Shown here piece by piece: positions 9,617-39,282 of a stretch of 43,396 nt of DNA. The stretch is from positions 1 through 43,396 of the forward strand of contig JAGWXK010000009.1 of assembly GCA_018969905.1 (NCBI GenBank), in the 5' to 3' direction. The first letter of the stretch is position 1; every line of letters begins with the position of its first letter. Position numbers and translations under genes: made by a program. This stretch comes from Bdellovibrionales bacterium (GTDB lineage: Bacteria > Bdellovibrionota > UBA1018 > CAIMNF01). Below the pieces are notes generated by a model, which saw only the letters and a program-made list of their open reading frames with translations, ran no database searches and was not told the origin of the DNA.

Positions 9617-9787
9617 CGCCATAGGCCCTAAGGGGTATCGAACTTTGGGGCTGTTCGTCAACTGGATGCTCCCTCGTGCATCCGCCGATGCCCTCAAGGC
9701 ACATGGGCAATCTTCAGGCGTAGTTCAAGTGAGAATTCCTTAAAAAATAAATATTTAAATACATGTAATTGCGACAATTTAAAATAA

Positions 9788-9820
9788 TTAACTTATTTAA
9801 ATATGCATATTATAATAAGT
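9788..9820 (+). promoter_or_regulatory. Promoter with a 30-nt near-perfect palindromic operator, apparently leaderless
   Basis: A perfect -10 box TATAAT at 9811-9816 follows a -35 box TTAACT at 9788-9793 with a 17-nt spacer. A palindrome centred between 9805 and 9806 covers 9791-9820 with 13 of 15 pairs matching (outer arms ACTTATT/AATAAGT, inner AATATGCATATT), so it spans the spacer and the -10. Transcription is expected to start at about 9822-9824, which coincides with the ATG at 9824; no ribosome binding site precedes it. The layout suggests autorepression by the XRE protein encoded immediately downstream. The surrounding 9740-9830 is strikingly AT-rich compared with its neighbours. Confidence 0.7.
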
Positions 9821-11340: not shown

Positions 11341-11408
11341 AGCGCTTCACCTTGGTACAGAAACTGTATTTGGTTCTAAAAGGTATGGCTAAGCCCGTGG
11401 GGTAAAAG

Positions 11409-11480
11409 GAGTCTGGCCGACTCTCGCGAGTCAGGACAGACGCCAGCGAGGCCGCAGGATGCGGCTCGGAGGCCAAACTC
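11409..11480 (+). repeat. Structured intergenic repeat, copy 1
   Basis: A 58-nt core at 11416-11473 is 53/58 identical to the reverse complement of 39082-39139. The core contains a hairpin ACTC-TCGC-GAGT and a 6-bp hairpin GCCGCA-GGA-TGCGGC extended by CGA/TCG around a bulged G. The outer arms GAGTCTGGCC (11409-11418) and GGCCAAACTC (11471-11480) pair with one mismatch and so close the core. The arms have a different sequence from those of copy 2. The element fills the middle of the 206-nt gap between the TfoX-like gene and the cyclophilin gene. The flanks (11341-11408 and 11481-11546) show nothing else I can name. Confidence 0.75.
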
Positions 11481-11546
11481 ATCTGACTCTGAGGGCTAGC
11501 TAGCTACCACTCGAAACCCAATTCCCAATCTTCTCGGGCAGTTTAC

Positions 11547-39058: not shown

Positions 39059-39162
39059 CACCTCCGGAGTGTGAGGCATTTGCCTCCGAGCCGCATCCTG
39101 CGGCCTCGCTTTCGTCAGTCCATACTCGCGAGAGTCGGCAAATGCCTCACACCCCGAAGGTG
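39059..39162 (-). repeat. Structured intergenic repeat, copy 2
   Basis: The core 39082-39139 (minus strand) matches 53/58 bases of the copy at 11416-11473. It is closed by a perfect 16-bp stem, GTGTGAGGCATTTGCC (39069-39084) with GGCAAATGCCTCACAC (39137-39152). This extends outward to CACCT (39059-39063) and AGGTG (39158-39162) with two mismatched pairs, for 24 of 26 pairs. The arms are unrelated to those of copy 1 while the core is kept. The element lies in the 346-nt gap between the M48 and thioredoxin genes. The remainder of the gap shows no gene. Confidence 0.8.
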
Positions 39163-39282
39163 TTCAGCTGTCAATTCCGTGCCCTGTTCAATAAGATGAT
39201 GAAAGGGCGCAATCCACCTGCAGCGCCACCGCAGAATTTGACATCCGCGACTTGAGCCCCATTAAGGATTCAGGAGCTGATC

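Follow-up and report, generated by a model that had tools for sequence, protein, structure and literature searches.

The window, as we call the whole 43,396-nucleotide stretch of DNA that was analysed, holds two members of a genuine family of mobile palindromes. It is a mobile DNA hairpin family of predatory-type bacteria, with a common folded tip and a private matching stem for each copy. The family has defined ends, nested inverted arms, a two-hairpin core on a long stem, tens of intergenic copies and presence/absence differences between species. In the best reading, which we consider probable, it is a non-autonomous mobile palindrome of ~196–200 bp that folds as a single strand and works in a REPIN/MITE-like way. 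The pair of related segments from which the original prediction started is a small piece of this larger family. A repeat family is hereby described for the predatory-bacterium order; literature searches restricted to open-licence papers listed no such element.

The 54-base cores of the two copies (11419–11472 on the plus strand and 39083–39136 on the minus strand) are identical at 49 of 54 positions, and direct reading of the sequence bore out the 53/58 identity first reported for 11416–11473 and 39082–39139. This match is not due to chance, since the best 58-mer match in 50 shuffles of the window reached 35/58. The core covariance model (R2) scored 59.6 bits for copy 1 (11407–11481) and 60.2 bits for copy 2 (39074–39148). 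The short arms proposed to close copy 1, GAGTCTGGCC (11409–11418) and GGCCAAACTC (11471–11480), indeed pair with one mismatch. The coordinates first given cover only the middle of a ~170–200 bp element, and the pairing of the copy 2 arms reaches much further than stated, with 24 bp per side and two positions not identical. The fold z was −9.15 for copy 2, with 0 of 200 shuffles as good, and −1.91 for copy 1, with 7 of 200 shuffles as good. The orthologs of copy 1 in G002 and G009, two genomes of the same genus, have a 23–24 bp paired arm where the left arm of copy 1 has partly decayed. The features of the window are as follows.

11361–11388, plus strand: copy 1, left outer arm (AAACTG...GGTATGG), decayed (comparison with orthologs L090 and L098)
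11389–11418, plus strand: copy 1, copy-specific inner arm on the left, decayed in part, holding GAGTCTGGCC at 11409–11418 (ortholog comparison)
11419–11472, plus strand: copy 1, conserved core with P2/P2b hairpin and P3 hairpin (R2 match)
11430–11441, plus strand: copy 1, core hairpin P2b, loop GGA at 11434–11436 (loop conserved across 56 cores)
11451–11465, plus strand: copy 1, core hairpin P3, GCCGC-AGGAT-GCGGC (stem covaries between genera)
11473–11500, plus strand: copy 1, right inner arm (sequence and ortholog comparison)
11518–11544, plus strand: copy 1, right outer arm with end CAGTTT, adjoining the PPIase stop codon
39025–39044, minus strand: copy 2, outer arm, diverged
39059–39082, minus strand: copy 2, inner arm lying 3' of the core as read on the core strand
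39083–39136, minus strand: copy 2, conserved core (R2 match)
39139–39162, minus strand: copy 2, inner arm lying 5' of the core as read on the core strand
39177–39195, minus strand: copy 2, outer arm, diverged
9698–9802, no strand: empty site in an intergenic gap, filled in the G002 counterpart (alignment)

At the copy 2 locus in G002 (G002:C2 ~531000–532300; window 39079–39139), an additional ORF of ~270 aa was present, together with a core-less palindrome whose outer arms resemble those of L002.

Full copies measure 196–200 bp and run from AACTGG to CCAGTT. The distance from ACTGG to CCAGT in 21 full copies was 196 bp in 15, 193–195 bp in four, and 203 and 243 bp in the remaining two. From the outside in, the order is an outer arm of ~22–25 bp, a spacer of ~22 bp, an inner arm of ~22–33 bp and the core, followed by the mirror image. 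The inner arms are copy-specific and commonly end in TTTGGCC, and the outer arms of the 21 copies held 50 mismatches in 462 positions. Terminal repeats are present and lie further out than the segments first considered. The core, bounded by GACT and GGAG, is a three-way junction consisting of P2 (CTCGC/GCGAG), which bears P2b with a GGA loop, an internal loop GAG/GAAA, P3 with an AGGA loop, and then GGAG. Across 56 cores of 54 bases, the three GGA bases of the P2b loop were identical in 55, 56 and 56 cores, respectively, and in the P3 loop G39, G40 and A41 were invariant and A38 was present in 55. No GTAG or CGTC tetranucleotide was found at the hairpin foot. Reading the GAG/GAAA internal loop as a kink-turn or a hammerhead was considered and dropped, as the strand order and motifs were unsuited to either. 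In L218 (294–428) and L019/L020, cores were interrupted or enlarged by additional hairpins with AGGA or ATGA loops, and L021 and L023 (G000:C162) are two degenerate core half-matches, 170 bases apart, within a longer repeated stretch.

A 92-base query hit 24 places in the genome that holds the window (G000) at E ≤1, the last few of them weak. R1, a covariance model that spans inner stem plus core and was built from 49 aligned copies (alignment A1), gave 24 matches in G000, 44 in G002 and 21 in G009 at E ≤0.01. The genome-wide search called for by the original prediction, by DNA query and covariance model, returned 24 copies in the own genome rather than the two of the window, with arms that are divergent yet paired. 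R1 also matched 28 times in G039, which belongs to another family, and between one and three times each in G003, G004, G005, G007, G010, G020, G025 and G026, so that 12 of the 55 genomes of the order were positive. With R2, 14 of the 368 genomes of the phylum were positive. A DNA query with the full element matched 6 of 40 relatives, with many copies only in G000, G002 and G009, and most congeners were without the element at the sensitivity of this query. The copy alignment retained 59 of the 62 copies that passed the match-length cut, the three others having no recognisable core end. A1 comprises 49 of these 59, after removal of L001, L014, one hybrid and near duplicates; alignment A3 comprises 39 of 56 R1 matches, and the G039 statistics cover 21 of 28 copies. 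A viral origin found no support: the core pattern had no match in viral_contigs, and one element queried against phages and plasmids gave none. A core-pattern match in Myxococcales (L088) was taken as chance, only part of the profile being matched. In Rfam searches of the window and nine loci, the element was not above any gathering threshold, one tRNA beside an element apart, and a 50-bit MIR807 match on one locus (threshold 113) was taken as a chance long-hairpin match.

The original prediction had argued against a simple mobile element, and this argument fails. Copies are scattered and intergenic, occur in some sister species and not in others, have recurrent ends and a nearly constant length, and the site of one copy is empty in two relatives. 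At that site G002 holds a full copy between two genes (outer-arm matches at G002:C2:501222–501399), and the alignment shows G000 (~9698–9802) and G009 to be empty there; this single empty site could also be a deletion in an ancestor of G000 and G009. Copy 1 yielded no clean empty site among seven congeners without the element, because the neighbour beyond the PPIase gene differs in these relatives. The element is or was mobile. Copies were mostly intergenic, and the core strand was unrelated to the strand of tandem genes: of 60 classified contexts, 16 had the core on the same strand, 18 on the opposite strand, 15 were convergent and 11 divergent. Another four copies lay within a long ORF and six at a contig edge. 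Direct repeats of at least 3 bp flanked 6 of 21 copies, compared to 24% for mismatched flanks, so that no target site duplication beyond chance was detected, and inspection of the flanks of these copies by eye revealed no fixed tetranucleotide.

Several arrangements also bear on mobility. In G002, L026, L034, L084 and L105 have near-identical arms and are close copies at different loci. Adjacent head-to-head elements exist there too, and L083 (G002:C4, ~164409) is a hybrid with its left half from one copy and its right half from another subfamily, which suggests recombination between copies. L208 and L209 (G002) consist of outer arms and spacers only, which looks like loss of the inner hairpin, and the unpaired outer-arm matches inspected in G002 are remnants or chance. 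No recurrent family was found among the ORFs neighbouring the copies, nor any autonomous copy or adjacent transposase. The low-copy members L114, L115 and L128 adjoin the 3' ends of tRNA-like sequences, of which the tRNA at L114 was confirmed by Rfam.

Covarying sides of long hairpins are usually read as proof of RNA selection. In A1, where the arms were aligned outward from the core by sequence and not by pairing, 27 of 40 pairs showed changes on both sides, with 381 double-change cells observed vs 102 after shuffling. Paired cells made up 94.0% of A1, compared to 73.9% after shuffling and at most 48.5% with partners slid, a percentage that leans towards the fold, which was derived from the same sequences. 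Between genera, 9 of 12 pairs in the core helices had double changes (90 cells vs 24.7 shuffled); P3 reads GCCGC/GCGGC in one group and AAAC/GTTT, GAAC/GTTC or GGAC/GTCC in others. The G039 stems pair at 827 of 863 positions, with a mean identity between copies of 0.35 at arm positions 7–28 vs 0.88 for the cores, and several G039 loops are ATGA, ACGA or AAGA, without GGA. The inference of selection on structure held in that the arms vary yet pair, with heavy covariation, but compensation need not mean selection on RNA: core inversion at orthologous loci, with the arms in place, is an outcome expected of polymerase template switching (PMC8604942).

The inner arms of 53 copies, with identical arms removed, were mismatched at 141 of 1398 positions, and on the core strand these comprised 50 G.U and 19 A.C, which suggests that the core strand is the folded strand, as RNA or as single-stranded DNA. 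The p value of this asymmetry, 2e-4, is no true probability because the copies are related. The excess was not repeated in G039 (15 G.U vs 12 A.C) or in the outer arms (18 vs 14).

Ortholog groups were defined from the flanks, and core orientation was tested by alignment score. Among 21 ortholog pairs in 16 groups, the core had the same orientation in 14 pairs and was inverted in seven (six groups). Inversion was supported by both flanks in three groups and by a single flank, at a contig end, in one; in two inverted groups, both at G000:C52, copies had rearranged with each other, which confounds the reading. The clearest case was G000:C172 vs G009:C74, in which only the core and a few bases per side were turned, and the spacers and arm-specific differences remained with their flanks. 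Replacement by a new insertion is possible for the inverted groups C138/C153 and C5/C32, because the arms differ there too. Two similar G039 copies, L165 and L170, differed by a one-base deletion and two substitutions, each in both arms. In very close copies, arm changes were mostly one-sided, a pattern that fits two-step compensation as well as copying; copying is therefore not instantaneous. In yeast, template switching between inverted-repeat arms homogenises the arms and inverts spacers (PMC8604942), and such switching can create and maintain paired RNA hairpins (PMC8794818). Arm homogenisation and spacer inversion are common to these cases and ours, but the inverted spacers there are a few bases long, compared to a 54-bp structured core here. 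Core inversions and arm indels shared by both sides leave a trace, so that dozens of copies with orthologs in two relatives allow selection for the fold to be separated from mutation copied between arms. The family is therefore a good test case of how pairing persists in long hairpins as the sequence drifts.

Under the reading as a mobile palindrome, the element would move in the form of a folded single strand on which an enzyme of the Y1/HUH (IS200/REP) type acts in trans. We infer single-strand movement because of the lack of a detectable target duplication, the conserved hairpin tip and the strand-biased G.U pairs of the largest subfamily. The core would serve as the recognition module and be conserved for that reason, and the stem would be free in sequence provided that pairing persists. 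A mutation in one arm would be transferred to the other; the most likely route is template switching inside the hairpin, which may occasionally also flip the core. Arm pairing would be kept by this switching together with selection for the fold. With arm changes copied across the stem, each copy would thus drift to a private but paired stem.

Among known systems, bacterial MITEs are likewise short, non-coding and dispersed, with terminal inverted repeats. The element differs from them in its nested covarying stem and in that no parent IS was found, and it was not filed as a strict MITE because no target duplication was found. Unlike PATE-like elements derived from IS200/IS605, our element has no fixed short 5' target sequence in the flanks of 21 copies, as judged by eye. 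REPINs and BIMEs, which are REP doublets that form hairpins (PMC3116915), share with it the character of intergenic, hairpin-forming, length-constrained, gene-free miniature DNA with paired conserved ends, a less conserved interior and common compensatory changes on both sides; one REPIN type measures 71 bp between its conserved 16-mers. The element was not filed as a REPIN because it has no GTAG/CGTC foot and no adjacent cognate RAYT, is larger (~196 bp) and has a conserved capped tip, the two-hairpin core; its G039 stems, moreover, are wholly private between copies. REP sequences, hairpins of 20–50 nt preceded by GTAG (PMC8266576, PMC6006769), resemble the element in being intergenic and in forming a single-stranded hairpin on which a Y1 enzyme probably acts, a link that for our element is a candidate one.

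As a special case of the mobile palindrome, it is possible, if rather doubtful, that the element is REPIN-like and owes its mobility specifically to RAYT proteins of this order. Of the 55 genomes of the order, 34 encode Y1 proteins of the RAYT sort, which are thus abundant, and in G020 several RAYT-like genes have a private-arm palindrome ~120–200 bases upstream, with two G020 loci matching the P2b hairpin of R2 (E 0.012 and 0.014). Such a palindrome precedes the RAYT-like gene at L191, L264, L265 and L261, forming two hairpins in two of them by a strict test, or in three; the second hairpin has a GGA loop and resembles P2b, and in two cases it is preceded by GAG and followed by GAGA. However, no element lay beside the RAYT genes examined in G000, G002, G009 or G039, the GTAG/CGTC foot is missing, and G007 and G010 have elements and no RAYT-like gene at E 1e-6. 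A general upstream palindrome at RAYT genes was rejected, with 5 of 53 upstream regions vs 7 of 159 shuffled ones. Nor do Y1_Tnp (Pfam) counts follow element copy number: there was one each in G000, G002 and G009, seven in G039, and four each in G005 and G011, which have few elements. Matches to NCBIfam REP_Tyr_transpos were below the cut-off. Y1/RAYT-like homologs were located at L198 (G000:C53), L268 (G009:C81) and L267 (G002:C1). In the alignment, the closest Y1 homologs in G000 and G009, L198 and L268, no longer have the first His of HxH and lack the catalytic Tyr region; they are possibly domesticated. Such degenerate relatives are candidates for a past or present partner, and Y1/RAYT proteins are candidates only for the transposase of the element.

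Three side observations concern the RAYT-like genes themselves. A CATTGCCCC motif is conserved shortly 5' of their starts in several genera (L261, L262, L264, L265, L191, L198, L268, L270, L275 and others). G014, G032, G034 and G025 carry 15 to 22 of these genes per genome, an unusually large family. The element of G011 and a RAYT gene are 1.5 kb apart and separated by a further ORF.

The main rival to the mobile element is a dispersed structured RNA, in which the copies would be transcribed, the stem protective and the two GGA-loop hairpins bound by a CsrA/RsmA-like protein as a sponge. We consider it unlikely. GGA in a hairpin loop is a CsrA site, and the main subfamily has GGA loops, which G039 has partly lost. 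Such a Csr/Rsm-type sponge RNA would fit with helices that covary while their loops and internal-loop bases are conserved, with the preference of the main subfamily's inner arms for G.U over A.C, and with the additional AGGA-loop hairpins of some cores. However, the copies have no orientation preference relative to genes, no promoter-like site was found around copy 1, and the core is inverted at orthologous loci. In addition, GGA is lost from the several G039 loops named above, and, unlike known RNA families, the element stayed below all Rfam gathering thresholds in the window and the nine loci.

Parvovirus terminal hairpins have a long stem, two small capping hairpins and a tip in both orientations (flip and flop). 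The element has the same long stem, two small hairpins on its tip and both orientations, but it is chromosomal and non-viral, and the likeness lies in fold and tip orientation. Propagation through a folded single strand with one arm templating the other, as a chromosomal analogue of parvovirus-type hairpin transfer, is a decidedly speculative idea. If it were true, private perfect stems, the two-hairpin tip and the flipping core would all come from one mechanism and not from slow compensatory mutation.

That the elements act as bidirectional terminators or insulators between genes is very improbable: several copies lie just past terminator-like T-runs or tRNA 3' ends and 15 of 60 classified contexts are convergent, but tandem (34/60) and divergent (11/60) sites are common too and the stem itself has no trailing T-run. 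Scarcely credible is a role of the copy-specific arms as siRNA-like guides against other sequences, for although arms are unique to each copy, most so in G039, whole-element queries of two copies matched only elements or short weak stretches, the single phage and plasmid query gave no match, and the exact matches of the arms of 15 copies in 121 kb of own-genome DNA (overlaps included) were no longer than those of shuffled arms, with two exceptions, a 14-base match and a 16-base match that was taken to be sister copy L012.
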